Of a stretch of 64,000 nucleotides of DNA, positions 33,883-57,854 are shown in pieces. Position numbers and translations under genes: made by a program. How positions within the stretch are numbered: position 1 is the first letter of the stretch; each line of letters begins with the position of its first letter. The notes under the pieces were generated by a model, which was given only the letters and a program-made list of their open reading frames with translations, ran no database searches and was not told the DNA's origin. The DNA is from an uncultured Blautia sp. (GTDB taxonomy: Bacteria; Bacillota; Clostridia; Lachnospirales; Lachnospiraceae), in NCBI GenBank assembly GCA_945864225.1, contig CAMBAL010000001.1, forward strand, positions 40,468-104,467, written 5' to 3'.

Positions 33883-33947
33883 AAAAAATGTAACAAAACC
33901 TTAATATTTTTTCAATATGATAGAGGAGTATGATTCAGGGGGATAAA

Positions 33948-35678: not shown

Positions 35679-35680
35679 TT

Positions 35681-37203: not shown

Positions 37204-38286
37204 ATGAGAACTTATTTAGTAACCGGAGGTGCCGGATTTATTGGTTCCAACTATATTCACTATATGTTTGAAAAATACGGAGACACGATCCGCATCATCA
37301 ATGTGGATAAGCTCACCTATGCAGGAAACCTGGAGAATCTGAAGGATATCGAAGACAAAGAAAACTATACTTTTGTTAAGGCAGATATCTGTGACAGCGA
37401 TGCGATCATGAAGATCTTTGAAGAAAACGATATTGACCGTGTCGTACATTTTGCTGCGGAGAGCCATGTGGACCGGAGTATTAAGAATCCGGATGTTTTT
37501 GTAAAAACCAATGTTCTCGGAACACTTGTGATGCTGAATGCCGCTAAGGCTGCGTGGGAACTTCCGGATGGTACATTTAAGACGGATAAAAAATTCCTTC
37601 ATGTTTCTACAGATGAAGTTTATGGTTCTCTGGAAGAGGACGGAGGATATTTTTATGAGACTACACCATATGCACCTCACAGCCCGTATTCTGCAAGTAA
37701 GGCATCATCAGATATGCTGGTAAAGGCGTATATGGATACTTATAAATTTCCGGCAAACATTACGAACTGCAGCAATAACTACGGTCCGTACCAGTTCCCG
37801 GAAAAACTGATTCCGCTGATTATTAACAATGCGCTTCAGGGCAAGAAACTTCCGGTATACGGTGACGGTAAAAATGTCCGTGACTGGCTGTATGTAATGG
37901 ATCATGCCAAAGGCATTGATATGGTTCAGGAAAAAGGCCGACTTTTTGAAACATATAATATCGGCGGACATAATGAGAAACAGAATATTCAGATCATTCA
38001 TATTATCCTGGATACCCTTCAGGAGATGCTCCCGGATGAGGATCCGCGCAAAAAGCTGGTAAGTGAAGATCTGATCACTTACGTGGAAGACCGTAAGGGA
38101 CATGACCGCCGTTATGCGATTGCTCCGGACAAGATTAAAGAAGAAGTTGGCTGGTATCCGGAAACCTGTTTTGAGGATGGCATCCGACTGACGATTCAAT
38201 GGTTCTTTGAGCATGAAGACTGGATGAAAAACGTCACCAGCGGTGATTACCAGAAGTACTACGAGGAAATGTACAAAACCAAATAA
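37204..38286 (+). CDS. rmlB: dTDP-glucose 4,6-dehydratase
   Basis: This enzyme makes dTDP-4-keto-6-deoxyglucose, the branch point for rhamnose and for 4-amino sugars. The 360-residue SDR protein has TGGAGFIGSNY (NAD site) at the start, AAESHVDRSI near residue 83, the STDEVYG segment with catalytic Asp/Glu near 137, and YSASKAS with the Tyr/Lys pair near 162. Here its product can feed both RmlC/RmlD (rhamnose) and the WecE-type aminotransferase (Fuc4N). It sits immediately upstream of the ATP-grasp/PLP module rather than with rmlA and rmlC, which fits that second use. Confidence 0.97.
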   Translation: MRTYLVTGGAGFIGSNYIHYMFEKYGDTIRIINVDKLTYAGNLENLKDIEDKENYTFVKADICDSDAIMKIFEENDIDRVVHFAAESHVDRSIKNPDVFVKTNVLGTLVMLNAAKAAWELPDGTFKTDKKFLHVSTDEVYGSLEEDGGYFYETTPYAPHSPYSASKASSDMLVKAYMDTYKFPANITNCSNNYGPYQFPEKLIPLIINNALQGKKLPVYGDGKNVRDWLYVMDHAKGIDMVQEKGRLFETYNIGGHNEKQNIQIIHIILDTLQEMLPDEDPRKKLVSEDLITYVEDRKGHDRRYAIAPDKIKEEVGWYPETCFEDGIRLTIQWFFEHEDWMKNVTSGDYQKYYEEMYKTK

Positions 38287-38304
38287 AAACAGAGACTCCG
38301 TCAG

Positions 38305-38394
38305 CCGGGAAAAATCCCGGAGATAGCTGTATAGAAAAAATTACAGGAAATATAAATGAAATGCTGCAGGACCTCAGGAAATGCAGCATTTCCT
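38305..38394 (+). promoter_or_regulatory. Leader with alternative hairpins before the ATP-grasp/PLP gene
   Basis: CCGGGA-aaaa-TCCCGG (38305-38320) is followed by two mutually exclusive stems. The long one pairs GAAATGCTGCA (38358-38368) with TGCAGCATTTC (38382-38392). The short one pairs AGGAAAT (38376-38382) with ATTTCCT (38388-38394) and is followed by ATTTT. The layout is that of an antiterminator/terminator switch, but the terminator stem is AT-rich and I see no known riboswitch or T-box motif. Confidence 0.45.
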
Positions 38395-38411
38395 ATTTTG
38401 GAGAGAGCATA

Positions 38412-40526
38412 ATGGAAAAAATAGTGATTATCGGTGCAAATGACTTTCAGCGCCCTCTGATTCAGAAGGCAAAGGAGATGGGGTATGAAACCCATGTATT
38501 TGCCTGGCGGGAAGGTGCAACAGGAGCAGAAGACGCGGATGTTTTTTACGAGATCAGCATCACGGAAAAGGAAAAAATACTGGAAATCTGCCGCAGAATC
38601 CAGCCGAAAGCGGTGGCTACCATTGGTTCGGATCTGGCTAATGTTACCGTTCAGTATCTTGCTGAAAAACTGGGGCTTCCGTGCAACAGCAGGGAGTGTA
38701 TCCATAATTCTACAAACAAATATGCCATGCGCAAAGCATTTCAGAAAGCGGGCATTCCCGTACCTTTCTTTCAGGTTGCAGAAGAAGGACAGGAGATGAT
38801 TCCCCCATCTTATCCTGTTATCGTAAAGCCGACAGACCGTTCCGGAAGCCGTGCAATTACAAAAGTTGAAACTCCGGATAAACTGCAGGAAGCGATAAAA
38901 AATGCAGTTTCTCAGTCTTTTGAGAAAAAAGCCATTGTCGAAGAATACATCTGCGGCGCAGAGTACAGTGTGGAGACCATCAGTTTTGAAGGAAATCATA
39001 CCTGTCTGGCGATTACCAAAAAATATACCACAGGAGAGCCCCACTATATTGAAGTAGGACATCTGCAGCCGGCACCTTTGAAAGAGCAGATGAAGGAAAA
39101 AGTGAAACAGACGGTATTTGAGGCACTGGATGCATTGGGAATACGGTATGGAGCAGGACACAGCGAACTGCGTATTGATTCGGAGGGAAATGTGCGCATC
39201 ATTGAAATCGGATCGCGTATGGGCGGTGACTGCATCGGTTCGGATCTTGTTCCCTTATCTACAGGACAGGATTTTGTAAAGATGGTGGTGGATACAGCGG
39301 CGGGAAGAAAACCGGAAATAAAAGAAGCGGAAGAATATGTGGCGGCTATCCGTTTTTTGATGAATGAAAAAGATCTGAAGCATATGGAACGTATACAAAA
39401 GGAAAATCCGGATAAAGTGAAAAAAACTGTTCTGGACAGTCCGGTGAAAGATGCAGTGATTACGGACAGCGGGAGCAGACCGGGATTTTATATTCTTCAG
39501 GCGGATTCCATGGAAGAGATGGAAGCTCTTCTTTATGAAGGTCCTGCAGAAAACCCGGTGGAGATTTTTGAAACTCCGATCCAGAAACTTCGTTTTTCAG
39601 ATGAAAAAAATGCATTTTATATGAAGAGGGATGATCTGCTTCCCTTCTCCTTTGGCGGAAACAAAGTCCGCTTTGCCCGGAAATTTGTGGAGGATATGCA
39701 GACAAAGCATTGCGACAGTATGATTATTTATGGTAATTACCATTCCAATCTCTGCCGGATTCTGTCAACACTTTGTCGGGAACTGGATATTCCCTGTTAC
39801 ATGATTCACAATACGGAGGATATGAAAGAAGAGAAAGAAACCCACAACAGCCGTATCATCCACGAGATGGGGGTAAAGGAGATCCGGTGTACGAAACAGG
39901 GGATTGCAGATGCAGTGCAGCAGGCAATGAATGAACTGACAGAAAGAGGATATCATCCCTATTATATTTACGGAACTATTTACGGAACCGGAAATGAGTG
40001 GGTACCCATGCAGGCTTACGTGGAAACTTATGTGGAAATCTGTGATTTCGAAAAGAGAAGCGGTGGAAAATTCGATTATATTTTCCTGGCTTCCAGTACC
40101 AATGCCACACAGTCCGGACTATTGATGGGAAGCCTGTTGAAAAAAGACAAACGGAAGATCATTGGAATTTCTGTCTCCAGAAATGAAAAGAGAGGAAAAG
40201 AAGTGATTGCCGGAAATCTTCAGGAATACGCAGACAGGTTTTCCATTTCTCTTCCGAAACATCCGGAGGAGGCCATTTCCTTTACAGATGCCTATATGGA
40301 AGGCGGTTATGGTGTATATTCGCAGAATGTGGCAGATTTGATCAGTCAGGTCTATCGGACGGATGGAATTCCGTTAGATATGACATATACAGGAAAAGCA
40401 TTTTATGGTATGATGAAATATCTGGAGGAACACGGGATAGAAAATAAAAATATTCTTTTCCTTCATACAGGAGGAACGCCGTTATTTTTTGATTATCTGA
40501 TGGAGAAATCGGAGAGCTTGAAATGA
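38412..40526 (+). CDS. Fusion: ATP-grasp ligase + ACC-deaminase/D-cysteine-desulfhydrase-like PLP enzyme
   Basis: A 704-residue two-enzyme protein. Residues 1-100 are the pre-ATP-grasp domain (MEKIVIIGANDFQRPLIQKA). Residues about 105-300 are an ATP-grasp core with VIVKPTDRSGSRAI (ATP lysine, 136-149), VEEYICGAEYSVE and IIEIGSRMGGD (263-273), of the amino-acid ligase (BacD-like) kind. Residues about 388-700 are a fold-type II PLP enzyme: PLP lysine Lys418 in FGGNKVRF, GNYHSN with Ser445-Asn446 in the place of the ACC deaminase nucleophile, MTYTGKAFYG (657-666) and FLHTGGTP (683-690). The second half may supply or epimerise an amino acid that the first half ligates. The substrate is unknown. 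The ATG has GGAG eight bases upstream; the stop overlaps the next start (ATGA). I know of no characterised protein with this order. Confidence 0.85.
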   Translation: MEKIVIIGANDFQRPLIQKAKEMGYETHVFAWREGATGAEDADVFYEISITEKEKILEICRRIQPKAVATIGSDLANVTVQYLAEKLGLPCNSRECIHNSTNKYAMRKAFQKAGIPVPFFQVAEEGQEMIPPSYPVIVKPTDRSGSRAITKVETPDKLQEAIKNAVSQSFEKKAIVEEYICGAEYSVETISFEGNHTCLAITKKYTTGEPHYIEVGHLQPAPLKEQMKEKVKQTVFEALDALGIRYGAGHSELRIDSEGNVRIIEIGSRMGGDCIGSDLVPLSTGQDFVKMVVDTAAGRKPEIKEAEEYVAAIRFLMNEKDLKHMERIQKENPDKVKKTVLDSPVKDAVITDSGSRPGFYILQADSMEEMEALLYEGPAENPVEIFETPIQKLRFSDEKNAFYMKRDDLLPFSFGGNKVRFARKFVEDMQTKHCDSMIIYGNYHSNLCRILSTLCRELDIPCYMIHNTEDMKEEKETHNSRIIHEMGVKEIRCTKQGIADAVQQAMNELTERGYHPYYIYGTIYGTGNEWVPMQAYVETYVEICDFEKRSGGKFDYIFLASSTNATQSGLLMGSLLKKDKRKIIGISVSRNEKRGKEVIAGNLQEYADRFSISLPKHPEEAISFTDAYMEGGYGVYSQNVADLISQVYRTDGIPLDMTYTGKAFYGMMKYLEEHGIENKNILFLHTGGTPLFFDYLMEKSESLK

Positions 40527-41710
40527 AAAAATTAATGATTCTGGGTGCCAGTTATTCTCAGCTTCCGCTTTATGAGGCGGCGAGAAAGCTGGGAGTCCAT
40601 ACGATTGCTGTCAGTACACCGGGGGACTGGCCGGGATTTTCTGCAGCGGATGAGAGTTCTTTTACAGATATTTCGGATCCTGAAGCAGTACTTCGGGCTG
40701 CAGAGGAATACCAGATTGATGGAATTACAACCTGCTGTCTTGACACAGGAGTAAAAGCAATTGGCTATGTCTGTGAAAAACTTGGCATTAAGGGACTCTC
40801 AGCCAGAGCAGGTGAAATCAGCAGCGATAAGTACAAAATGAAAGAAGCTTTTTTGCAGGGCGGTGTGAACTGTGCCCGCCATATCTGTATCCGAAGCAGA
40901 GAAGAGCTGGAGGCGGCTCTTGATGAGTTACGCTTCCCGGTAATCGTAAAAGCGGTGGATCTGATGGGAAGCAGGGGGATTTTTCGCTGCATCACAAAAG
41001 AAGAAGCACGGACATATTATGGGGAAACGATGGCAGCAACCAAAAAAGACTACTGTCTTCTGGAGGAATTTATTGAAGGAAAGATTCTGGGATGCGAGGC
41101 GATGATTTCTGACGGGAAACTGCTTTACTGTCTGCCGAATAATATTGAAGCTTACCAGAGTTACGTTCCCACTCCCATAGGTCATTCAGTTCCGTACAGA
41201 AAACAGAAAAAACTCGGTGCTGAAGTAGAACGTCAGGTCGGTCTTGCCATCAAAGCGGTCGGGCTGGACAACTGTCCGGTCAACTGTGATCTGATCGAAA
41301 AAGAGGACAGAATCTATGTGATTGAAATTACTGGACGTGCCGGTGCTACCTGTCTGCCGGAAATGGTGGGATTGTATTATGGAATCAATTATTATGAAGC
41401 CATTGTGCGGCTGGCGCTTGATATGGAACCGGAAAAAATGTTTCGGGAAGATGCCCCGCATCAGGCGAATTTATCCAGAATCCTGACATCAGAAACAACC
41501 GGGATTGTAAAAGAGATACATAATGAAAATGTACGTTCAGACGATATTTATGATCTTTCTTTTAACATTGAGCCGGGAGATGTGGTTCGCAGATATGAAA
41601 ACGGCAGAGATCGGCTGGGCCAGGTGATTCTGACGGGATCAGATCTGGATGCCTGTGAAAAGAGACTCACACAGGTTTTGTCGAAAATTAACATTGAATT
41701 TACTCTATGA
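40523..41710 (+). CDS. ATP-grasp carboxylate-amine ligase
   Basis: A second, stand-alone ligase of 395 residues, expected to activate a carboxylate as acyl-phosphate and join it to an amine. The pre-ATP-grasp domain is at the N-terminus (MKKLMILGASYSQLPLYEAA). Core motifs are FPVIVKAVDLMGSRGIFR near residue 140, LLEEFIEGKILGCEAM near 186, and VNCDLIEKEDRIYVIEITGR near 253, with Asp and Glu for magnesium. It is only distantly similar to the ATP-grasp half of the preceding fusion, so two different bonds are probably made. It overlaps that gene by four bases and is 15 bases from the small membrane proteins, in one operon with sugar-nucleotide and lipid-carrier enzymes. Confidence 0.88.
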   Translation: MKKLMILGASYSQLPLYEAARKLGVHTIAVSTPGDWPGFSAADESSFTDISDPEAVLRAAEEYQIDGITTCCLDTGVKAIGYVCEKLGIKGLSARAGEISSDKYKMKEAFLQGGVNCARHICIRSREELEAALDELRFPVIVKAVDLMGSRGIFRCITKEEARTYYGETMAATKKDYCLLEEFIEGKILGCEAMISDGKLLYCLPNNIEAYQSYVPTPIGHSVPYRKQKKLGAEVERQVGLAIKAVGLDNCPVNCDLIEKEDRIYVIEITGRAGATCLPEMVGLYYGINYYEAIVRLALDMEPEKMFREDAPHQANLSRILTSETTGIVKEIHNENVRSDDIYDLSFNIEPGDVVRRYENGRDRLGQVILTGSDLDACEKRLTQVLSKINIEFTL

Positions 41711-41725
41711 TTGTGAGAAAATAGC

Positions 41726-42112
41726 ATGAGAAATTATTTGTCTGCAAAAAAAGGTACATTTTTATTGCTGCATATCAGCCTGTTATTCAGTTCCCTCAGC
41801 GGAGTCTGTTCCAAAATGGCATCCAGATATACGGATCATATTTTGTCCATTTCGTTTCTGTTCTGGTTTGGTCTGGTTTTTGTAATTATGTTTGGGTATG
41901 CCATTATCTGGCAGCAGATTCTGAAAAGAATGCCTCTGACAGTTGCCTATGCCAACAAACCTGTGACATTGATCTGGGGAATTATCTGGGGAAGTCTGAT
42001 TTTTGGAGAGAAGATTACATGGAATATGATTGTTGGGGCAGCAGTGATTTTTGCAGGAATTTATCTGGTAACGAGTGAAAACACAGAGAGAGGCGGTGGC
42101 AGCAGTGAGTGA
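41726..42112 (+). CDS. Small multidrug-resistance-type membrane protein, ArnE/ArnF-like subunit 1
   Basis: A 128-residue protein with four hydrophobic helices in the EmrE/SMR fold (KGTFLLLHISLLFSSLSGVC; SISFLFWFGLVFVIMFGYAI; PVTLIWGIIWGSLIFGEKI; VGAAVIFAGIYLVTS). The segment LTVAYANKPVTLIWGIIWG resembles the third helix of EamA/ArnE-type proteins. It is followed by an overlapping second SMR gene, so the active unit is probably a heterodimer, as for ArnE-ArnF, which flips undecaprenyl-phosphate-aminoarabinose. The neighbouring ArnC-like transferase supports a flippase role over drug export. Confidence 0.8.
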   Translation: MRNYLSAKKGTFLLLHISLLFSSLSGVCSKMASRYTDHILSISFLFWFGLVFVIMFGYAIIWQQILKRMPLTVAYANKPVTLIWGIIWGSLIFGEKITWNMIVGAAVIFAGIYLVTSENTERGGGSSE

Positions 42113-42449
42113 ATTGCAAGTGGGAGTGTGTGTGCTGCTGATTTCTGTTATGATTTCCTCGGTATCCCAGATTCTGTTAAAAAAGGCTGCAAACAGAAGT
42201 TACAGAAATCCTCTTATGGAATACCTGAATCCGCTGGTCATTGGTGCGTACGCCATGTTTTTCGGTTCCGTGATACTGACCATGATCGCGCTCAAATATG
42301 TGCCGCTGTCCATGTCACCGATTCTGGAATCCACAGGCTATATTTTTGTGTCTGTTCTGGGCTACCTGTTTTTGAAAGAACGTTTCAGCAGGAGAAAACT
42401 GCTGGGATTTGCATTGATTCTGTGTGGAATCGTGATTTTTAATCTATAA
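42105..42449 (+). CDS. Small multidrug-resistance-type membrane protein, ArnE/ArnF-like subunit 2
   Basis: A 114-residue four-helix protein. The GTG at 42105 overlaps the stop of subunit 1 by eight bases (GTGAGTGA), which implies coupled translation; an upstream in-frame GTG at 42075 is possible. Helices are QVGVCVLLISVMISSVSQIL, LVIGAYAMFFGSVILTMIAL, MSPILESTGYIFVSVLGYLF and LLGFALILCGIVIFNL. The SQILLKKA and ALKYVPLSMSPILESTGYIF segments are typical of EamA/ArnE-like flippases. It differs clearly from subunit 1, so it is not a recent tandem copy. Confidence 0.8.
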   Translation: MSELQVGVCVLLISVMISSVSQILLKKAANRSYRNPLMEYLNPLVIGAYAMFFGSVILTMIALKYVPLSMSPILESTGYIFVSVLGYLFLKERFSRRKLLGFALILCGIVIFNL

Positions 42450-42470
42450 AGGCGGATTGTTGCTGTTTAT

Positions 42471-42533
42471 TAGTACGTCAGATAACAGGCAAGACAGATA
42501 TATCAGTTATTCATTTACGATGTACTGGTACAT
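42471..42533 (+). repeat. 64-base structured repeat, copy B (before the ArnC-like gene)
   Basis: The partner of 16083-16146. AGTACGTC (42472-42479) pairs with GATGTACT (42519-42526). Several stem positions differ from copy A yet remain paired. It lies inside the operon, in the 120-base gap between the second SMR gene and the glycosyltransferase. Confidence 0.6.
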
Positions 42534-42569
42534 CCCGTGAAATGCGAGAGAAAAGAAGGAGTCAGAAAG

Positions 42570-43559
42570 ATGCTGGTATCCATTGTAATACCGTGTTATA
42601 ATTCAGAACACACCATCGGCAGGGTGGTGGAACTGGCAATTGAAGAATTTCAGAAACTGGATGATTATGAATGCGAATTTGTTCTGGTCAATGATTATTC
42701 CAGAGATCATACCTGGCAGGCAATCCATTCACTGACGGAGAAATATCCCAATGTGAAGGGAATCAATCTTGCCAAAAATTTCGGGCAGCACAATGCAATC
42801 ATGGCTGCGCTCCATTATACAGAAGGAGAACTGATTGTGGGAATGGACGATGATATGCAGAACCATCCGTCACAGATTCCGCAGTTCCTGGATAAAATGC
42901 AGGAAGGCTATGATATTGTTTTTGGAGTGTTTAAAGAACGGAAGTTTTCTGTTTTTAAAAATATGACAGGTGCAGTCAGCCGTTTCCTTCTCTGGCACCT
43001 CCTGGATCGTCCGAAGGACATTCAGATGAGCAGCTTCTGGTGCTGCCGCCGTTATGTGAGGGATGAAGTGGTGAAATATGACGGATACAATACGTTTATT
43101 CAGGTACTGTTTTTCCGTACGACCCATAACATTGCCAATATTGAGATCGAACATTATGCAAGAGAAGTGGGAACTTCCAATTATAATTTCCGGAGAGGGC
43201 TGAAACTGTTTCTGTCCTGTCTGAATTTTACAGTGATTCCCCTGCGTGTTGCGACCTTTCTGGGTACACTTTTTTCGGCAGCAGGATTTATCGGTGCAAT
43301 AGCAGTTCTGATACGGAAAATTCTGAATCCGGCAACAGTCATTGGCTGGTCCTCTCTGATGTGTGCCATGCTGGTACTGTTTGGATTCTGTTTCCTGATG
43401 CTGGGAATTATTGGCGAATATCTGGGCAAAGTCATTTTGAATATAAATAAGACACCTCAGTATGTAATAAGAGATAAGGAAAATATTGTCCAGGATACAC
43501 ATCCGGAGACAGAGACGGATTCCGCTGAGAGGAATCCCGGACACAGACCGGAAGTGTAG
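42570..43559 (+). CDS. ArnC/DPM1-like GT2 polyprenyl-phosphate glycosyltransferase
   Basis: It probably moves a sugar from a nucleotide to undecaprenyl phosphate on the inner membrane face. The ATG at 42570 has AAGGAG eight bases upstream. The 329-residue protein has a GT2 domain (VSIVIPCYNSEHTIGRVV; LVNDYSRDHTWQ; LIVGMDDDMQNHPSQIP with DDDMQ near residue 93). A membrane region follows with two helices (about 224-300: FLGTLFSAAGFIGAIAVLI and SLMCAMLVLFGFCFLMLGIIGEYLG split between them). It ends in a charged tail. The fold and the GEYLGK motif match the ArnC/GtrB/CsbB group. With a WecE-type aminotransferase next to it, the likely donor is dTDP-Fuc4N or its aminoacyl form. Confidence 0.9.
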   Translation: MLVSIVIPCYNSEHTIGRVVELAIEEFQKLDDYECEFVLVNDYSRDHTWQAIHSLTEKYPNVKGINLAKNFGQHNAIMAALHYTEGELIVGMDDDMQNHPSQIPQFLDKMQEGYDIVFGVFKERKFSVFKNMTGAVSRFLLWHLLDRPKDIQMSSFWCCRRYVRDEVVKYDGYNTFIQVLFFRTTHNIANIEIEHYAREVGTSNYNFRRGLKLFLSCLNFTVIPLRVATFLGTLFSAAGFIGAIAVLIRKILNPATVIGWSSLMCAMLVLFGFCFLMLGIIGEYLGKVILNINKTPQYVIRDKENIVQDTHPETETDSAERNPGHRPEV

Positions 43560-43594
43560 ATACTGAAGAAGAAAAGATGACGAAGAGGAGATCC

Positions 43595-44737
43595 ATGATT
43601 GATTTTAACAGACCTGCCTTTACCGGCAGAGAGATGGAGTACATTAAAGATGCAGTGAACCGGGGAATGCTGTGCGGGGATGGAATTTATACCAGACGCT
43701 GTTCTCAGTGGATGGAGGAGAAGTTTCAGGTCAGGAAGGTACTTCTGACAACTTCCTGTACGCATGCTCTGGAAATGGCGGCTTATCTTTCCGATATCCA
43801 GCCGGGGGATGAGGTGATCATGCCTTCTTATACGTTTGTATCCACTGCTGATGCTTTTGTATTGCGGGGAGCAAAGGTGGTATTTGTGGATATCCGTCCG
43901 GATACCCTGAATATGGATGAAAAACTGATCGAGGATGCAGTAACGCCGAGAACCCGGGCGATTGTCCCGGTCCATTATGCAGGAGTAGCCTGCGAGATGG
44001 ATACGATTATGGCAATTGCTGCGAAATATGGATTGAAAGTGATCGAGGATGCAGCACAGGGCGTGGATGCTTTTTATAAGGGAAAAGCCCTGGGAAGCAT
44101 CGGGGATTTCGGCTGCTACAGCTTTCATGAGACAAAGAATTATACCATGGGAGAAGGCGGAGCCCTTCTCTTTCAGGATGAGAAATACCTGGATCGTGCG
44201 GAAATCCTTCGGGAAAAGGGCACGGACCGGAGTAAATTTTTCCGGGGACAGGTAGATAAATACCGCTGGGTGGATTATGGGTCTTCCTATCTGCCAAGCG
44301 AACTGAACGCGGCGTATCTTTATGCGCAGCTGGAGGAACATGAGAAAATCAGCCATAAACGTATGGAGATTTACAATTATTACCATGAGAATCTGAAATG
44401 CCTGGCGGATGAAGGAAAGATTGAGCAGCCGTCTGTACCGGAAGGATGTGTCCATAATGCACATATGTATTATATAAAAGTACGGGACATGGAGGTACGT
44501 ACACGGCTTCTCTCCTATCTGAGAGAGAGGGGAATCTGCAGTGTGTTCCATTATGTTCCGCTCCATTCGTCACCGGCAGGAAAGAAATTCGGCAGATTCC
44601 ATGGAGAAGATGTCTACACCACAAAAGAGAGCGAGAGACTTCTGCGCCTTCCCATGTTCTATAATCTGGACATGGAAGACGTAAAGAAAGTTGTGGATGC
44701 GATTGTTTCTTTTGATGGATTTGAGGGAAAACTATGA
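43595..44737 (+). CDS. wecE: dTDP-4-amino-4,6-dideoxygalactose transaminase
   Basis: A PLP aminotransferase (DegT/DnrJ/EryC1 family) that turns dTDP-4-keto-6-deoxyglucose into dTDP-Fuc4N using glutamate. The 380-residue protein is strikingly close along its whole length to E. coli WecE (RffA) as I remember it: GKLCGDG-like GMLCGDG, PGDEVIMPSYTFVSTADAFV, VPVHYAGVACEMDTIMA, the PLP lysine Lys181 in SFHETKNYT, FFRGQVDKY and RFHGEDVYTTKESERLLRLP. The ATG at 43595 is chosen by homology (MIDFNRP) and GAGGAG upstream; an ATG at 43577 adds six residues. It needs the RmlB product, which this locus makes. Its stop overlaps the next start by four bases. Confidence 0.93.
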   Translation: MIDFNRPAFTGREMEYIKDAVNRGMLCGDGIYTRRCSQWMEEKFQVRKVLLTTSCTHALEMAAYLSDIQPGDEVIMPSYTFVSTADAFVLRGAKVVFVDIRPDTLNMDEKLIEDAVTPRTRAIVPVHYAGVACEMDTIMAIAAKYGLKVIEDAAQGVDAFYKGKALGSIGDFGCYSFHETKNYTMGEGGALLFQDEKYLDRAEILREKGTDRSKFFRGQVDKYRWVDYGSSYLPSELNAAYLYAQLEEHEKISHKRMEIYNYYHENLKCLADEGKIEQPSVPEGCVHNAHMYYIKVRDMEVRTRLLSYLRERGICSVFHYVPLHSSPAGKKFGRFHGEDVYTTKESERLLRLPMFYNLDMEDVKKVVDAIVSFDGFEGKL

Positions 44738-46050: not shown

Positions 46051-46137
46051 AGAAATAAAAAGTAAGTACAGAAATCAGACAGACATGCCTGCATTTGCAG
46101 ACATGATCATCAATATCATGACATAAGGAGGAGTTCC

Positions 46138-47016
46138 ATGAAAGGAATTATTCTTGCAGGAGGTTCAGGAACAAGATTATATCCGCTGACAAAGGCGATT
46201 TCCAAACAGATTATGCCGGTTTATGATAAGCCGATGATTTATTACCCGCTTTCCACGCTGATGCTGGCAGGCATCCGGGAGATTCTGATTATCTCCACAC
46301 CAAGGGATCTGCCCGTATTTAAAGATCTGCTGGGAGACGGAAGCCAGCTTGGAATGAAATTTGAATATGCTGTTCAGGAAGAGCCGAGAGGACTTGCCGA
46401 TGCATTTATCATCGGTGCGGACTTTATCGGAAATGATGCTGTGGCACTGGTTCTGGGAGATAATATTTTCTATGGACAGAGCTTTTCCAGAGTACTGCAG
46501 AATGCATATAACCGTACGGAGACAGAGAAGGGGGCCACGATTTTCGGCTATTATGTAAGAGACCCGAGAGAATATGGTGTTGTGGAATTTGACGAGGAAG
46601 GGCATGCGCTTTCCATTGAAGAAAAGCCGGAGCATCCGAAATCTAATTATGCAGTTCCCGGACTGTATTTCTATGACAATGATGTGGTGGAAATTGCCAG
46701 AAATGTAAAGCCGTCTGCAAGAGGTGAGATTGAAATCACAAGCGTGAATAATGAATACCTCAGAAGAGGAACATTAAGAGTGGAGACTCTGGGAAGAGGA
46801 TTTGCGTGGCTGGATACCGGCAATCACGACTCTCTTCTGGATGCGGCAGACTTTGTATCCGCATTCCAGAAACGCCAGGGACTGTATATTTCCTGTATTG
46901 AGGAAATTGCGTATAAACGCGGATTTATTACAAAGGAACAGCTGGTTGAACTGGCGCAGCCTCTTCTGAAGACTGCATACGGACAATACCTGATCGAAGT
47001 AGCGGAGGGATTATAA
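46138..47016 (+). CDS. rmlA: Glucose-1-phosphate thymidylyltransferase
   Basis: Makes dTDP-glucose, the first step for both rhamnose and Fuc4N. The 292-residue length is normal. It has [16 protein letters not shown] (nucleotide loop) at the start, [15 protein letters not shown] near residue 25, [10 protein letters not shown] near 107, [20 protein letters not shown] near 161 and [18 protein letters not shown] near 220. A strong AAGGAGGAG precedes the ATG. It is two bases from rmlC. Confidence 0.98.
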
Positions 47017-47017
47017 A

Positions 47018-47569
47018 ATGGGTAAGATAACAGTAGAGACATGTGAAATCGAAGGGCTGAAGGTAATTACCCCGACTGTATTCGGCGATGCCCGCGGATA
47101 CTTCATGGAAACTTATAATTACAATGATTTTAAGGAAGCAGGCATTGATGTGGAGTTTGTGCAGGACAATCAGTCCAGCTCCCGTTACGGAGTACTGCGC
47201 GGTCTGCATTTTCAGATCAATTATCCGCAGGACAAGCTGGTCCGTGTGGTGAATGGTGAGGTTTTTGATGTGGCTGTAGATCTCAGGGAAGGTTCCGCGA
47301 CTTATGGAAAATGGTTTGGTGTGATTCTTTCCGCAGAAAACAAGAAACAGTTCTTTATCCCGAAGGGTTTTGCACATGGGTTTCTGGTGCTTTCCGAAAA
47401 TGCGGAGTTTACTTACAAGTGTTCTGATTTTTATCATCCCAATGATGAGGGCGGTCTGATCTGGAATGATCCGGATATCGGAGTGGAGTGGCCTGTTCCT
47501 GAAGGAATGGAACTGATCTTCTCAGAAAAAGATCAGAAATGGGGCAGCTTTAAGGATTTCCGGAGATAG
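47018..47569 (+). CDS. rmlC: dTDP-4-dehydrorhamnose 3,5-epimerase
   Basis: Epimerises the 4-keto sugar at C3 and C5 on the way to dTDP-L-rhamnose. The 183-residue cupin protein shows DARGYFMETYNYNDF, FVQDNQSSSRYGVLRGLHFQ with the catalytic histidine in RGLHFQ, and FAHGFLVLSENAEF. One base separates it from rmlA and nine from the exporter permease, so it belongs to one transcript. Confidence 0.97.
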   Translation: MGKITVETCEIEGLKVITPTVFGDARGYFMETYNYNDFKEAGIDVEFVQDNQSSSRYGVLRGLHFQINYPQDKLVRVVNGEVFDVAVDLREGSATYGKWFGVILSAENKKQFFIPKGFAHGFLVLSENAEFTYKCSDFYHPNDEGGLIWNDPDIGVEWPVPEGMELIFSEKDQKWGSFKDFRR

Positions 47570-47578
47570 GAGAGAGGA

Positions 47579-48394
47579 ATGCTGAAAACTATTTTTTCCC
47601 TGCCGGCGGATGTGTACAAAAACCGCCGGCTGGTTTTCAAACTTGCCAAAAATGATTTTAAGACAAAATATGCCGGTTCCTATCTGGGAATCATCTGGGC
47701 ATTTATCCAGCCAATTGTTACGATTCTGGTATACTGGTTTGTTTTTTCAGTAGGATTTAAGCCGACTATGGATAATGTGGGAGTTCCCTTTGTCCTGTAT
47801 CTGGTAGCAGGTATTGTGCCGTGGTTTTTCTTCCAGGATGCCCTGGTGGGAGGAACCAATGCCCTTCTTGAATATAATTATCTTGTAAAAAAAGTCGTTT
47901 TCAATATCAGTGTGCTTCCTGTTGTGAAGGTGATTTCCGCGCTGTTCGTACACGGCTTTTTCGTGATGTTTACCATAATTTTGTATATGTTTTACGGGAA
48001 ATGGCCGGACCTGTATTATCTGCAGATTCTTTATTACAGTCTGTGTGTATTTTTGCTGGTTCTGGGCTTATGTTATGCGACCTGTGCAGTGGTTATCTTT
48101 TTCCGTGATCTGACACAGATGATCAATATCGGGCTTCAGGTGGGAGTCTGGCTGACCCCGATCATGTGGGTGGCAGAAAATGCACTGCAGGGCCATCCGG
48201 TTCTTCAGAAGGTACTGCAGATCAATCCCATGTACTATGTCGTTTCCGGTTACCGTGATTCTTTTATCATGAAGCGCTGGTTCTGGGAACGTCCGTTGTG
48301 GACACTTTATTTCTGGATGTTTACCATTCTGTGTTTCCTCGGAGGCAACTGGGTATTCAAGCGTCTGCGTGTTCATTTTGCAGATGTATTATAA
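47579..48394 (+). CDS. wzm: Polysaccharide ABC exporter permease (Wzm/TagG type)
   Basis: The membrane half of an ABC-2 exporter that moves a finished, lipid-linked polymer out of the cell. The 271-residue protein starts with an amphipathic segment (YKNRRLVFKLAKNDFKTKYA), followed by about six helices, including YLGIIWAFIQPIVTILVYWF and LGLCYATCAVVIFFRDLTQM. The pattern LGIIWAFIQP is typical of the Wzm/TagG/RfbA family. Its ATPase is the next gene. With rhamnose genes around it, the cargo is probably a rhamnose-rich wall polysaccharide; a teichoic acid is less likely because no tag/tar synthesis genes are visible. Confidence 0.93.
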   Translation: MLKTIFSLPADVYKNRRLVFKLAKNDFKTKYAGSYLGIIWAFIQPIVTILVYWFVFSVGFKPTMDNVGVPFVLYLVAGIVPWFFFQDALVGGTNALLEYNYLVKKVVFNISVLPVVKVISALFVHGFFVMFTIILYMFYGKWPDLYYLQILYYSLCVFLLVLGLCYATCAVVIFFRDLTQMINIGLQVGVWLTPIMWVAENALQGHPVLQKVLQINPMYYVVSGYRDSFIMKRWFWERPLWTLYFWMFTILCFLGGNWVFKRLRVHFADVL

Positions 48395-48456
48395 CGAGAA
48401 AGACTGTTCAGAGGCGGGAACAACAGCTCTGGACAGGCAAAAAGAGAGGTTTTGAA

Positions 48457-49752
48457 GTGGAGAAGAAAAAAGTCATTCAGGTTCAGCATTTATCCAAAAT
48501 GTATAAGCTTTATGATAAACCATCGGACCGTCTGAAAGAGTCCCTGGGACTTTCCAGAAAAAAACGTTATCGGGAGCATTATGCACTGCATGACGTGAAT
48601 TTTGATGTACATGAGGGGGAATGCGTGGGGATTATCGGTACCAACGGTTCCGGCAAATCCACCATTCTGAAGATTATTACCGGTGTGCTGACACCTACAG
48701 AGGGTCAGGTACTTGTGGATGGAAGAATATCTGCTCTTCTGGAACTGGGGGCAGGATTCAATATGGAATATTCCGGTCTGGAAAATGTATATCTGAACGG
48801 TACCATGATCGGTTTTTCCAAAGAAGAAATTGATGCCAGACTGGATGATATTCTGTCTTTTGCGGATATCGGGGATTTTATCCATCAGCCGGTGAAAATG
48901 TATTCCAGCGGTATGTTCGTGCGGCTGGCTTTTGCAGTGGCAATCAATATTGATCCGGAAATCCTCATTGTAGATGAGGCGCTTTCTGTAGGAGATGTAT
49001 TTTTTCAGGCAAAATGTTATCATAAATTTGAAGAATTCAAGGAGCAGGGCAAGACCATCCTGTTTGTCAGCCACGACCTGAGCAGCATTTCCAAATATTG
49101 TGACAGAGTCATCCTGCTGAATAAAGGACGGATGCTGGACGAAGGTGCGCCAAAAGCGATGGTGGATATGTACAAGCAGCTTCTGGTACATCAGGATCCT
49201 GTGAAACAGACGGAAGGGGCAGAAGATGCACCGGGAACACAGGAAAACTGGCGGGAAGGCTTCCGTGTGAATCCGGATACGCTGGAATACGGTGAAAAAC
49301 AGGCGGAAATTGTGGATTTTGTGGTGCTGGATTCCAAAGGACGCCAGAGCAATACCATTGATAAGGGAAGCACATTCCAGATCAAGATGAAAGTGCATTT
49401 CCATGAAACGATTCAGCAGCCGATTATGGCTTATACCTTTAAGAACATTCAGGGTACAGAAATCACGGGAACCAATACCATGTATGAGGAGGTTTTTGTG
49501 GAGCATCCGGATGCAGGAAGAGAATGCGTGGTGACATTTCAGCAGAAAATGGACCTTCAGGGCGGAGAATATCTGCTTTCCTTCGGTTGTACCGGATACC
49601 GGAACGGGGAATTCACTGTGTTCCACCGGCTGTACGATGCCTGCAATATTACGGTTGTTTCCACGAAGAACACCGTGGGATTTTTTGATATGAATTCAGA
49701 GGTTTCCGTAGAAGAGCCGGAACCGGACAGAAAAGTCACTGCAAAAGAGTAG
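48457..49752 (+). CDS. wzt: Polysaccharide ABC exporter ATPase with C-terminal substrate-binding domain (Wzt type)
   Basis: The ATPase partner of the exporter. The GTG at 48457 has AGAGAGG seven bases upstream; the open frame before it overlaps the permease gene and is not protein-like. In 431 residues there are an ABC domain (about 1-245) with Walker A GTNGSGKST near residue 61, a signature YSSGMFVRLAF near 150 and Walker B ILIVDEAL near 171. A linker and a C-terminal domain of about 150 residues follow (from YGEKQAEIVDFVVLDSKG). That domain has the position and look of the Wzt carbohydrate-binding beta-sandwich that reads the chain end before export. Its presence argues for a capped polymer, in line with the next two genes. 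Confidence 0.92.
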   Translation: MEKKKVIQVQHLSKMYKLYDKPSDRLKESLGLSRKKRYREHYALHDVNFDVHEGECVGIIGTNGSGKSTILKIITGVLTPTEGQVLVDGRISALLELGAGFNMEYSGLENVYLNGTMIGFSKEEIDARLDDILSFADIGDFIHQPVKMYSSGMFVRLAFAVAINIDPEILIVDEALSVGDVFFQAKCYHKFEEFKEQGKTILFVSHDLSSISKYCDRVILLNKGRMLDEGAPKAMVDMYKQLLVHQDPVKQTEGAEDAPGTQENWREGFRVNPDTLEYGEKQAEIVDFVVLDSKGRQSNTIDKGSTFQIKMKVHFHETIQQPIMAYTFKNIQGTEITGTNTMYEEVFVEHPDAGRECVVTFQQKMDLQGGEYLLSFGCTGYRNGEFTVFHRLYDACNITVVSTKNTVGFFDMNSEVSVEEPEPDRKVTAKE

Positions 49753-49761
49753 GAGTGGGAT

Positions 49762-50685
49762 ATGTTGGAAAAAATCGGAAATGTAGAACTGGATTACACG
49801 TACTATCCCGGAGAGGATCTGTACAGCGACGGCCCGATTGAAGAAGTGCTTCTGGAAATTGCAAAAAACTATCGGGAAGAAGAATTGAATCAGGTGATCG
49901 CAGAGAGAAAAGACTGGTCTGTACTGTATCATTTTTCCCATGTGAGACAGAATATCCTGGAATGGCTTCCAATAGGAAAAGAGGATCATGTGCTGGAAAT
50001 CGGTTCCGGATGCGGTGCCATCACAGGTGCACTGGCAAGAAAAGCCAAAGATGTGACCTGTATTGAGCTTTCCAGAATGCGCAGTACCATCAATGCTTAT
50101 CGGAACCGGGACTACGACAATATCCGGATCATGGTCGGCAATTTTCAGGATATCGAGAAAAACCTGAATCAGACATTTGACTATATCACGCTGATCGGCG
50201 TGTTTGAATATTCCGAAGGATATATCGGAACCGGAGAACCCTATACAGAAATGATCCGCAGGATTTCCACGCATCTGAAGCCGGGCGGAAGACTGGTGAT
50301 CGCTATCGAAAACCGGCTTGGACTGAAGTACTGGGCAGGCTGTACGGAGGATCATGTGGGAACGTACTTTGAGGGTCTTGAGGGTTATCCCAATACAAGT
50401 GGAGTGAAAACATTTTCCCGCAAAGAACTGAAGGATCTGATAGAAAGTGTCGGGGATTTTGAAACGAAATTTTATTATCCTTATCCGGATTATAAATTCC
50501 CCATGACGATTTATTCGGATGAATATCTGCCGAAGAAGGGAGAACTTCGGGATAATTTCTGCAATTTTGACAGGGAGAGGATGCAGCTTTTTGACGAACC
50601 GAGAGTGTATGATACTCTGGTTGACAGCGGGCTGTTTCCGGAGTTTTCCAATTCGTTTCTGGTGCTGGCAGAAAGGAAGGAGTAA
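49762..50685 (+). CDS. SAM-dependent methyltransferase of the polysaccharide locus
   Basis: A 307-residue class I methyltransferase. The SAM motif is VLEIGSGCGAITGALA near residue 76, followed by CIELSRMR (acidic end of strand 2) and FDYITLIGVFEYSEGY (motif II). The N-terminal 70 residues (LDYTYYPGEDLYSDGPIEEV) are probably a substrate-recognition part. It lies between the exporter ATPase and a kinase-like coiled-coil protein, with gaps of nine and two bases. The combination recalls WbdD, where a methyltransferase and a kinase cap the non-reducing end of an ABC-exported O antigen. The methyl acceptor here is inferred, not seen. Confidence 0.88.
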   Translation: MLEKIGNVELDYTYYPGEDLYSDGPIEEVLLEIAKNYREEELNQVIAERKDWSVLYHFSHVRQNILEWLPIGKEDHVLEIGSGCGAITGALARKAKDVTCIELSRMRSTINAYRNRDYDNIRIMVGNFQDIEKNLNQTFDYITLIGVFEYSEGYIGTGEPYTEMIRRISTHLKPGGRLVIAIENRLGLKYWAGCTEDHVGTYFEGLEGYPNTSGVKTFSRKELKDLIESVGDFETKFYYPYPDYKFPMTIYSDEYLPKKGELRDNFCNFDRERMQLFDEPRVYDTLVDSGLFPEFSNSFLVLAERKE

Positions 50686-50687
50686 GG

Positions 50688-51998
50688 ATGGCTGAGATTA
50701 TTTTTTCGAAATATTCCAATGAGAGAAGTCGGAGCTTTGCCATCCGTACAGATATTCTGCAGGATGGCAGGGAACGTTTTGTGAGGAAAACGGCGCTTTA
50801 CCCGGAAGGCAGAGAACATGTGAACAGGCTGCCGCTCTGGTATGAGAAACTGGAGGAAATGTATCGGATGGTTTCTCTCTGCTGCAACAGATGTGAAGCG
50901 AAGGAAGACGGCGTGCACCTGGAATATCTGGAAGGAAGAACTCTGGAGGAAATTCTGGATGAACTTCTGGAAAAGGGCATGGTGGAGGAAGCAAAAGAAA
51001 AGCTTTGTCAGTATCTTTCCCGTGTGAAAACGATTTATGACAGAGAGCCTTTCCGCAAAACGGAAGAGTTTGTCAGGGTGTTTGGAGATGAGATGCTTCC
51101 GAAGGGACTGACTTGTGCATCTGTGACGAATATCGATATGGTATGTGCGAATCTGGTACTGACAGAAATTCCTGCCGGGTCAGAGGCAGGAAATACAGAA
51201 ATTTCCGGCAGTGATTCCCGAGTGATTTCTACAGTGCTGGATTATGAATGGACATTTGATTTCCCTGTTCCGTGTCAGTATGTGTTATACCGGATCATTC
51301 ATTATTATGTGGATACTCATAAAGTGAGAAGTGTTCTTGGCTCTGAGAAATTGTGCAGAGAATTTGGTATTACCATGGAGCAGGTTAGCGCCTTTGAGCA
51401 GATGGAACTTCATTTTCAGGAGTATATTACCGGAAGCCATGTTCCCATGAGGGAAATGTTCCGTTATATCACACCTGGCGTAAATACGGTACAGACAGTT
51501 AACAGAGGACAGCTGCAGGTGTTCTTTTCCTATGGAAACAGTTACAGAGAAGAGCATTCGCTGACCCTTCCCATGGAAAACGGAGAGGCAGAGCATACGA
51601 TTGAAATTCCGGAAGGATGTACAAAACTTCGCATTGATCCGGGAGAGCAGGCATGTGCCGTTCATATTCGGGAACTGACGATGGACGGGAAGAAACCTTC
51701 CATGGACGGATGTGTGATTCCGGAAGGCGTACAGGCGGGAGAGTGGATCTATATTGCCAAAGATGATCCGAATGTGGCGGAAATCCCTGTAACAGCCGGA
51801 ACCAGAGCAATGAAAATTTCTCTGAAAACGTATGGCGCTTCCAGGGATCTGATGAAGCAGGTCGTAAAACTTGCGGAAGAAAACCGGGAGCTGGAGAGAA
51901 AAGTGGAGCAGCAGAGTCGGCTGATCCGTGATATGAAAAATACAAAAGTCTGGAAAATGTACCAGAAATATCGAAATATGGCAGAGAGGAAAAAATAG
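50688..51998 (+). CDS. Kinase-fold-like protein with C-terminal coiled coil, possible chain-capping partner
   Basis: I recognise no named family, but the 436 residues show a kinase-like pattern: a possible ATP lysine Lys34 (ERFVRKTAL), a hinge-like YLEGRTLEEILD (80-91), Asp150-xxxx-Asn155 (NIDMVCANLVL) as in a catalytic loop, and Asp185 (VLDYEWTF) as in the metal-binding segment. Residues about 265-370 look like a beta-sandwich (RGQLQVFFSYGNSYREEHS). Residues about 385-436 are a heptad-like, charged coiled coil (VVKLAEENRELERKVEQQ). Kinase, coiled coil and adjacent methyltransferase together recall the parts of the WbdD chain terminator. If so, it would phosphorylate the polymer end. Activity is inference; the kinase signature is degenerate and could be inactive. 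Confidence 0.55.
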   Translation: MAEIIFSKYSNERSRSFAIRTDILQDGRERFVRKTALYPEGREHVNRLPLWYEKLEEMYRMVSLCCNRCEAKEDGVHLEYLEGRTLEEILDELLEKGMVEEAKEKLCQYLSRVKTIYDREPFRKTEEFVRVFGDEMLPKGLTCASVTNIDMVCANLVLTEIPAGSEAGNTEISGSDSRVISTVLDYEWTFDFPVPCQYVLYRIIHYYVDTHKVRSVLGSEKLCREFGITMEQVSAFEQMELHFQEYITGSHVPMREMFRYITPGVNTVQTVNRGQLQVFFSYGNSYREEHSLTLPMENGEAEHTIEIPEGCTKLRIDPGEQACAVHIRELTMDGKKPSMDGCVIPEGVQAGEWIYIAKDDPNVAEIPVTAGTRAMKISLKTYGASRDLMKQVVKLAEENRELERKVEQQSRLIRDMKNTKVWKMYQKYRNMAERKK

Positions 51999-51999
51999 C

Positions 52000-56954: not shown

Positions 56955-57011
56955 TAAATTTTGAAATAATCGCACAGCGTATACTGTGAAACCAGAAAGT
57001 GAGGAAAAGAT

Positions 57012-57854
57012 ATGCGAGTACTGGTAACCGGAGTGAAGGGACAGCTTGGCCATGATGTGATGAATGAACTTGCGAAGCGTGGCTATGAAGGCATTGGTGT
57101 GGACGTAGAAGAGATGGATATTACAGATGCATCAGCTGTGGAGCATGTTATGCGGGAGGCTCATGCGGACAAAGTAGTACACTGTGCTGCGTGGACCGCT
57201 GTGGATGCAGCGGAAGATCAGGCGGAACTCTGCCGCAGGGTCAATGCCCAGGGTACAGAAAATATTGCCAGAATGTGCAGAGAACTGGATCTGCCCATGA
57301 TCTATCTTAGTACGGATTATGTGTTTGACGGCGAAGGAACCAGACCATGGGAACCGGATGATGAGCGTCATCCGCTCAATGTATACGGTCAGACGAAATA
57401 TGAGGGCGAACTTGCCGTAGAAAAATATCTGGAAAAATACTATATTGTCCGTATTGCCTGGGTATTTGGCGTGAACGGTAAAAACTTTATCAAGACGATG
57501 CTGAAGCTCAGTGAAAATCATGATACTCTGACGGTCGTGGATGATCAGGTGGGATCTCCTACATACACATATGATCTTGCTCGGCTCCTGGTGGATATGC
57601 TGGAGACAGAAAAATATGGCCGTTATCATGCGACCAATGAAGGACTCTGCTCCTGGTATGAATTTGCAAAGGAAATTTTCCGTCAGGCAGGAAAACAGGT
57701 AACCGTGCTGCCGGTATCCAGCGAGGAATATCCGGCTAAGGCAAAACGTCCGCACAACAGCCGGATGAATAAAGACAAACTGGAGGAAATGGGATTTGAA
57801 CGCCTGCCTTCCTGGCAGGATGCGCTTTCCCGTTATTTGAAGGAGATTATGTAA
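57012..57854 (+). CDS. rmlD: dTDP-4-dehydrorhamnose reductase
   Basis: Final step to dTDP-L-rhamnose. The 280-residue SDR protein has MRVLVTGVKGQLGHDV (NADPH loop), HCAAWTAVDAAED near residue 58, YLSTDYVFDGEG near 100, and YGQTKYEGE with the catalytic Tyr/Lys near 130. All four rml genes are now present, but spread over 20 kb in the order B, A, C, D with other modules between. The stop abuts the next gene. Confidence 0.97.
   Translation: MRVLVTGVKGQLGHDVMNELAKRGYEGIGVDVEEMDITDASAVEHVMREAHADKVVHCAAWTAVDAAEDQAELCRRVNAQGTENIARMCRELDLPMIYLSTDYVFDGEGTRPWEPDDERHPLNVYGQTKYEGELAVEKYLEKYYIVRIAWVFGVNGKNFIKTMLKLSENHDTLTVVDDQVGSPTYTYDLARLLVDMLETEKYGRYHATNEGLCSWYEFAKEIFRQAGKQVTVLPVSSEEYPAKAKRPHNSRMNKDKLEEMGFERLPSWQDALSRYLKEIM

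Follow-up and report, generated by a model that had tools for sequence, protein, structure and literature searches.

What does a gut Blautia do with an amino sugar when the genes that would make it share one row with two ATP-grasp ligases, two small multidrug resistance (SMR) proteins and a membrane glycosyltransferase of the GT2 type? The row lies at 37204-44737 of the window, by which we mean the whole stretch of 64,000 nucleotides that was analyzed (uncultured Blautia sp., contig CAMBAL010000001.1, positions 40,468 to 104,467). The best reading, to which we give a probability of roughly 0.6, is a multi-component wall-glycosylation system that carries 4-amino-4,6-dideoxygalactose (Fuc4N) bearing an N-aminoacyl group. 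Briefly, RmlA and RmlB would supply dTDP-4-keto-6-deoxyglucose (dTDP, deoxythymidine diphosphate) and WecE would convert it to dTDP-Fuc4N, with RmlB and WecE assigned by family. LigA, a ligase of the L-amino acid ligase type, would acylate the 4-amine with a carboxylate, most probably that of an amino acid, where WecD would acetylate it. LigB would add a second residue or act as an alternative ligase, and a pyridoxal phosphate (PLP) domain fused to LigA would make or epimerise an amino acid, probably for LigB; LigB and this domain may extend or vary the attached group. By homology, the ArnC/GtrB-type GT2 would place the sugar on undecaprenyl phosphate (Und-P); the SMR pair may flip it; and a GT-C protein encoded at 57855 may transfer it to a rhamnose polymer exported by Wzm/Wzt. 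Placing acylation before loading is a guess by analogy with WecD.

An earlier note on this DNA had described RmlB, an ATP-grasp/PLP fusion, LigB, the SMR pair, GT2 and WecE as one tight row, and all are present there on the + strand (Table 1). We corrected three starts given by the open reading frame (ORF) caller because relatives begin at other codons, each of which is present: the fusion most likely begins at ATG 38412 (called at 38361), SMR2 probably at GTG 42105 (called at 42075), and GT2 most likely at ATG 42570 (called at 42537). Counted from the corrected start, the RmlB-fusion gap is 125 nt; the fusion and LigB genes overlap by 4 nt; LigB and SMR1 are 15 nt apart; SMR1 and SMR2 overlap by 8 nt once SMR2 begins at GTG 42105; and the SMR2-GT2 and GT2-WecE gaps are 120 nt and 17 nt. 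The wecE gene is overlapped for 4 nt by a D,D-carboxypeptidase gene. The note had also proposed a search for co-occurrence of these gene types across genomes. We ran it and found the order RmlB-LigA/PLP-LigB-SMR1-SMR2-GT2-WecE-RmlA-RmlC in 10 other loci (L156, L157, L159, L160, L162, L164, L165, L166, L168 and L172), a repetition that is therefore far beyond chance.

The predicted route to dTDP-Fuc4N stood up well. RmlB scores above its curated cut-off, as does WecE with two models (NF008687, 639 bits against 375; TIGR02379, 635.6 against 434.85), and WecE has solved relatives in 4piw and 6blg. Membership of these two families shows, by homology, a putative synthesis of dTDP-Fuc4N from RmlA, RmlB and WecE, as had been proposed.

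We examined the link between LigA and WecE in one genome per species (84,980 species), using a LigA alignment as the query; the best 80 of 557 relatives were kept. Flanks extended up to 8 kb, with 38 loci short on at least one side and 42 having full flanks, and GT2 genes were counted if they matched ArnC/GtrB-type queries at a minimum of 24% identity. Of the 80 best loci, 64 carry WecE, at a distance of 5 kb or less in 63 of them; 62 carry both SMR genes, 65 GT2, 25 LigB and 20 PLP. For the 42 loci with full flanks, the counts are 35 with WecE, 35 with the SMR pair and 37 with GT2. When LigA and WecE lie within 400 bp (n=27), WecE is always upstream and on the same strand. Fifteen of the 16 loci without WecE belong to genomes that hold it elsewhere. 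Hence WecE occurs in 79 of the 80 LigA genomes, versus a background of 91 of 392 genomes sampled from the order. The effective number is smaller than 80, since some loci nearly duplicate others; L188 and L190, for example, have identical LigA rows.

The reverse view was taken from 80 WecE loci of the order sample, at 58% identity or more. Within 4 kb, 20 have an ATP-grasp gene, 24 a GNAT gene and one has both (Fisher p 0.004, uncorrected for kinship); the GNAT genes counted are one family, a member of which matches PF13302. SMR genes stand beside 12 of the 20 ATP-grasp loci versus 3 of the other 60. Among 64 Blautia genomes, we found 52 WecE loci in 51 genomes, with an ATP-grasp gene within 8 kb in 37: 27 have a LigB relative, 18 have LigA, and 10 have another ATP-grasp type only. 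In two Blautia loci (L079 and L080) a distant ATP-grasp lineage adjoins WecE. The ligase thus varies from one to another beside an unchanging transaminase. Where an N-acyl partner is present, a ligase or a GNAT protein may fill the slot of WecD. The claim that the ATP-grasp works on the Fuc4N amine is thus supported by WecE in 79 of 80 LigA genomes and by the near-exclusion of ATP-grasp and GNAT (1 of 80 loci with both).

We note several counts that weigh against this reading. All locus counts are uncorrected for kinship. WecE was not found in one of the LigA genomes, an assembly of 1.3 Mb. For 37 of the 80 WecE loci, no GNAT gene and no ATP-grasp gene lies within 4 kb (among them, L036 has LigA just past the cut, and several are short contigs), and the N-acyl partner is therefore not universal or not always linked. 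In Blautia, 15 of the 52 WecE loci lack an ATP-grasp gene within that genus's 8-kb limit. The loci with no N-acyl partner would suit a different explanation, in which the ligases and the PLP enzyme act on soluble amino-acid compounds (a dipeptide, or a bacilysin-like product) and merely share a neighbourhood with Fuc4N that stays unmodified. Two L-amino acid ligases, BacD and BL00235, are among the nearest solved relatives, and distant WecE/ATP-grasp pairs (L144-L154) include a single annotated one, L146, that sits among LysR and ABC-transporter genes and not in a polysaccharide locus. We nevertheless regard this explanation as very unlikely, given that nearly every LigA genome holds WecE, usually adjoining and with the SMR pair, and that ATP-grasp and GNAT so rarely occur together beside WecE.

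These distant loci deserve a description of their own. L144-L155 come from 12 genomes, 11 in family f22 and one in f14, and carry a WecE of 39-46% identity. In 11 of the 12, WecE is followed by a short GT2-like gene (matched by a custom profile only) and an ATP-grasp gene; L155 is a short contig. The L146 WecE scores above NF008687 (476 bits against 375), but below TIGR02379 (417.6 against 434.85). Possibly, this is a second use of the WecE/ligase pair.

What, then, does LigA attach? The ORF called at 38361 joins the ATP-grasp domain in frame to a fold-type II PALP/PLP domain. An assembly artefact was considered and rejected: among 20 loci with both domains, a single complete ORF encodes them in 19 and a contig end truncates the remaining one; 18 of the 20 were aligned with the window protein across both domains. 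The nearest solved relative of LigA by sequence is the L-amino acid ligase BL00235 (3vot), which also ranks first in a Foldseek search with the predicted model of the fusion (pLDDT 86.8; TMt 0.79). LigA is thus kin to L-amino acid ligases by both fold and sequence, and ligation activity is predicted. LigA and LigB were also considered as recent duplicates; this was rejected, as they form separate, fully supported clades in a tree built by a quick method from 82 LigA and 32 LigB rows, in which long rows are unsure.

ATP-grasp enzymes use many carboxylates. The acid that LigA joins could be something other than an amino acid, a further point against our reading: acylation of Fuc4N with a hydroxy acid or a dicarboxylate would leave no peptide-like amide and may add a negative charge or none. 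At least three distant ATP-grasp lineages adjoin WecE, and the acyl group may therefore vary; in one LigA locus, L036, a MaoC-like gene lies beside the ligase. We judge a non-amino-acid group unlikely, because the nearest solved relative of LigA, in sequence and in fold, is an L-amino acid ligase, LigB has a LAL_C2 domain, and an amino-acid-type PLP enzyme is fused to either ligase. The earlier suggestion of added positive charge is not supported as it was worded, as the carried group could be neutral or acidic.

We next consider LigB and the PLP domain, which behave differently from LigA. Beside its LAL_C2 domain, LigB matches 4dim, an entry titled phosphoribosylglycinamide synthetase of Anaerococcus. 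The PLP domain has the fold of D-cysteine desulfhydrase (DcyD), with TMt 0.78-0.82 in the DcyD matches listed by Foldseek. Its residues K418, S445, Y633 and Y659, which we take to be the positions aligning with the PLP lysine and the Ser/Tyr residues of the D-cysteine desulfhydrase family, are invariant in 19 of 19 aligned rows, and the domain is therefore probably active. It may act as a racemase, as a lyase or in beta-replacement.

PLP (at least 40% identity) occurs in 28 of the 64 Blautia genomes, 26 of which also have a LigB relative. LigB relatives (at least 36% identity) occur in 33 of the 64, and all 33 have WecE. In most module-bearing Blautia the PLP domain is fused to LigA; fusions to LigB occur in L035 and, judging from the reading frame, in G408 and G438; and a free PLP gene lies about 1 kb from LigB in L047, G400, G402, G416, G426, G429 and G442. 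In nine other loci of the same family (L052, L053, L055-L061), PLP relatives have a PylC-like ATP-grasp within 2 kb in eight, which they directly adjoin in seven; no such ORF was called in L055. PLP relatives are fused to GNAT in L052 and L058. This repeated fusion to acyl-joining enzymes argues that the PLP enzyme makes or alters the joined group; probably, it makes or epimerises an amino acid for LigB. We rejected the PLP domain as an intrinsic partner of LigA, as it is present in only 20 of 80 LigA loci and goes with LigB in Blautia. LigA is the widespread companion of WecE, and LigB and PLP are a linked pair mainly of Blautia and near relatives. Hence, of the proposal that two ligases put amino acids on the sugar, the part concerning LigA gains from its link to WecE, but the two are not equal partners. 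As a separate observation, a Bac_transf initiating sugar transferase clusters with the PLP enzyme and the PylC-like ATP-grasp in eight of those nine loci.

For the membrane steps, the nearest solved structures to GT2 are ArnC (9hwj, 142.7 bits) and GtrB (5ekp, 125.4 bits), with homology spanning residues 3-301 of 329. This supports the proposed loading of the sugar on a lipid carrier; GT2 is, as homology shows, a predicted membrane GT-A loader of Und-P-sugar. SMR1 matches EamA, and SMR2 matches EamA and SMR models; from this homology, the pair is a likely, putative flippase, as had been suggested. An SMR pair might instead export drugs or metabolites and leave flipping to another protein, and SMR2 does weakly match EbrA (32.5 bits, cut-off 160) and EmrE (E 0.008). 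The chance of this appears slight to us: the pair is present in 62 of 80 LigA loci and goes with ATP-grasp in WecE loci, and ArnE and ArnF, themselves SMR proteins, are thought to transport C55-P-sugar, as stated in a passage of PMC7389260.

The remaining adverse points concern curated models and the last step. GT2 scores below those for ArnC (NF007986, 156.9 against 529 bits) and PgfS (NF047588, 165.1 against 500). SMR1 reaches 37.2 bits with the ArnE model (cut-off 92), and SMR2 30.5 with ArnE and 25.2 with ArnF (cut-off 99). The PLP domain lies below every NCBIfam cut-off listed for it, including those of TIGR01275 (142.3 against 289.4) and the CuyA model NF052482 (146 against 450). The acceptor, which we infer to be a rhamnose-type wall polysaccharide, is read from gene neighbourhood only. 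Finally, four genomes of the same genus with the module have no relative of the 57855 protein, as described below.

The 57855 protein has no Pfam match at E 1e-6. Its predicted model (pLDDT 80) gave 28 Foldseek matches at E of 0.001 or less, all of them by title GT-C enzymes or oligosaccharyltransferase chains, including ArnT (5f15, E 3e-5) and, nearer, Pmt4 (E 1.3e-6). The modelled protein thus has a GT-C fold. Relatives at E 1e-15 occur in 15 of the 392 order genomes, and all 15 have WecE; they span seven genera, with 7 of the 15 in one genus. The ORF of the relative in L080 (G329) shares 4 nt with wecE, and about 400 bp separate the two matches in G360. A relative is present in 10 of the 80 LigA loci. 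In contrast, G173, G331, G372 and G369, which belong to the same genus and carry the module (G369 without PLP), have no relative at E 1e-15 and therefore must use another transferase. We accordingly rejected this protein as an obligate part of the system. Its proposed role as the transferase is supported for this genome, by fold and by the 15 of 15 relatives with WecE, but does not extend to the whole system.

The acceptor of a GT-C enzyme cannot be predicted from its sequence, and the modified sugar might go to a teichoic acid, a lipid or a protein and not to a rhamnan. Relatives of the 57855 protein accompany WecE in L185, L192, L193, L195, L209 and L224, where the fetched flanks hold no relative of RmlC, Wzm or Wzt. 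We think such a target fairly unlikely, since RmlA, RmlC and Wzm directly continue the module, both in the window and in a number of other Blautia.

Table 1. Coordinates in the window of the genes of the row, the putative transferase and the neighbouring polysaccharide genes.
Feature	Position	Strand	Basis
RmlB, dTDP-glucose 4,6-dehydratase	37204..38286	+	TIGR01181 485.3 bits, cut-off 365.1
LigA, ATP-grasp domain of the fusion, proposed Fuc4N N-aminoacyl ligase	38412..39536	+	PF13535; 3vot; WecE linkage
PLP domain of the fusion, fold-type II, D-cysteine desulfhydrase/1-aminocyclopropane-1-carboxylate (ACC) deaminase-like	39543..40526	+	PF00291; DcyD fold
LigB, second ATP-grasp ligase with LAL_C2	40523..41710	+	PF18603; 4dim 360 bits
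SMR1, half of the proposed flippase	41726..42112	+	EamA; ArnE model 37.2 bits
SMR2, other half of the proposed flippase	42105..42449	+	EamA and SMR models; start from relatives
GT2, ArnC/GtrB/PgfS type, proposed Und-P loader	42570..43559	+	ArnC 9hwj, GtrB 5ekp
WecE, dTDP-4-keto-6-deoxyglucose transaminase, to dTDP-Fuc4N	43577..44737	+	NF008687, TIGR02379
Nucleotidyltransferase, read as RmlA (inferred)	46138..47016	+	PF00483; adjoins RmlC
GT-C membrane glycosyltransferase, proposed final transferase	57855..59294	+	Predicted GT-C fold; WecE linkage
RmlC, Wzm, Wzt, methyltransferase, g50688, two double-GT2 proteins, RmlD (context)	47018..57854	+	Proposed acceptor genes (rhamnose-type wall polysaccharide)

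Around the row, two S11-type D,D-carboxypeptidase genes (44734-46050 and 59514-60782) flank the polysaccharide region, the first being the one that overlaps wecE; a relative of it adjoins wecE in L031, L032 and L033, but not in L034. Directly upstream of the module, at 33930-37159, are two wall hydrolases (GH25 and Amidase_3) with choline-binding-type repeats. The g50688 gene (50688-51998), between the methyltransferase and GT2 genes, encodes 436 amino acids with no Pfam match at E 1e-6, and a relative with 33% identity occupies the same place in L034. In L079 (11844-12812) and L080 (7089-8054), a protein of 322-323 amino acids is encoded between a GtrB-type GT2 and the alternative ATP-grasp; the L079 copy has no Pfam match at E 1e-3, and the L080 copy no NCBIfam match at E 1e-15. 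We scanned for promoter-like sites (37, versus 23.2 in shuffles) and terminator-like sites (27, versus 8.8), most of which lie inside genes; no terminator-like site on the + strand falls in the RmlB-fusion, LigB-SMR1, SMR2-GT2 or GT2-WecE gaps or in 46051-46137. The scan therefore shows neither operon ends nor a single transcript.

How does the row compare with known systems? The Arn pathway consists of ArnA-B-C-D-E-F-T and acts on Gram-negative lipid A. The Blautia row resembles it in a 4-amino sugar that would be placed on Und-P by an ArnC relative, an SMR pair and a putative GT-C transferase. The differences are the predicted dTDP-Fuc4N, ATP-grasp ligases and a proposed wall polymer here, versus UDP-L-Ara4N (uridine diphosphate-4-amino-4-deoxy-L-arabinose), formylation/deformylation and lipid A in Arn. 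No formyltransferase or deformylase (ArnA/ArnD) Pfam family was found in the 27 window genes scanned (27207-63947; E 1e-3 or 1e-6). The row works like the Arn pathway in outline, yet the curated ArnC and ArnE cut-offs (157 against 529 and 37 against 92 bits) led us to reject membership, and the label "Arn-like" is not borne out in that sense.

Multi-component transmembrane glycosylation, as outlined in part of PMC8035078, uses a GT-A loader, a flippase and a GT-C transferase, and a passage of PMC7389260 describes the SMR class as thought to move C55-P-sugars. In the Blautia row, the predicted loader and the SMR pair, a putative flippase, are recognized by homology, and the GT-C fold is found in this genome. 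The CsbB-GtcA-YfhO and GacI-GacK-GacL systems, in the portions of PMC8035078 and PMC7389260 that describe them, likewise combine a GT-A loader on Und-P, a flippase and a GT-C enzyme acting on a wall polymer. Unlike these, the Blautia system would use an amino sugar for which the row itself holds synthesis genes together with ATP-grasp ligases, and its proposed flippase is an SMR pair, whereas the Gram-positive systems in those portions have GtrA-type or Wzx-type flippases. In enterobacteria, WecE and WecD together give dTDP-Fuc4NAc, as a section of PMC12212991 reports. The RffH-RffG-WecE-WecD route of the enterobacterial common antigen given there shares with the Blautia row the RmlA/RmlB/WecE path to dTDP-Fuc4N followed by N-acylation; here a ligase is proposed instead of WecD, and a single-sugar Und-P carrier instead of lipid III.

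O-antigens are known to contain 3- and 4-amino-deoxy sugars with amino acids in amide linkage, going by titles cited in PMC8074265. The chemistry would be common to both, an amino-deoxy sugar that carries an amide-linked amino acid and a further acyl group, but the known cases are Gram-negative O-antigens and Blautia has a Gram-positive wall. Fuc4N is predicted in a Clostridium butyricum capsule cluster (PMC12342839), the main text of which does not contain the word ATP-grasp. In the same family as Blautia (Lachnospiraceae), Ruminococcus gnavus has glucorhamnans with glucose side chains, according to part of PMC12413058; the passages of that paper that name Blautia describe no Blautia polysaccharide. 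In the open-licence literature searched, we found no ATP-grasp ligase described as using dTDP-Fuc4N, and no paper joining 4-amino-4,6-dideoxyglucose (Qui4N) or WecE with ATP-grasp. There is thus precedent for the chemistry; in that literature we found no account of the assignment of the ligase, of how widely it occurs in Clostridia or of the fused PLP enzyme.

A broader proposal is that a family of ATP-grasp ligases in gut Clostridia aminoacylates Fuc4N in the place of WecD, that the two ligases and fused PLP enzyme of Blautia build a dipeptide-like or D-amino-acid group, and that interchangeable ligases beside a constant WecE vary wall chemistry between species. We advance it tentatively, as a possibility that is somewhat improbable in its entirety. 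If true, a common human gut genus would have a wall decoration made of an amino-acid-bearing sugar, with the attached group differing between species. LigA would be a named enzyme for amide-linked amino acids on amino-deoxy sugars, a kind of ligase not found described in the open-licence literature searched, and the row would define a system of Gram-positive wall glycosylation that uses two SMR-type proteins as its flippase. It would also provide gene targets in commensals for phage adsorption, cationic-peptide tolerance and host lectin binding. Such a wall decoration could affect how Blautia encounters phages, antimicrobial peptides and the immune system.

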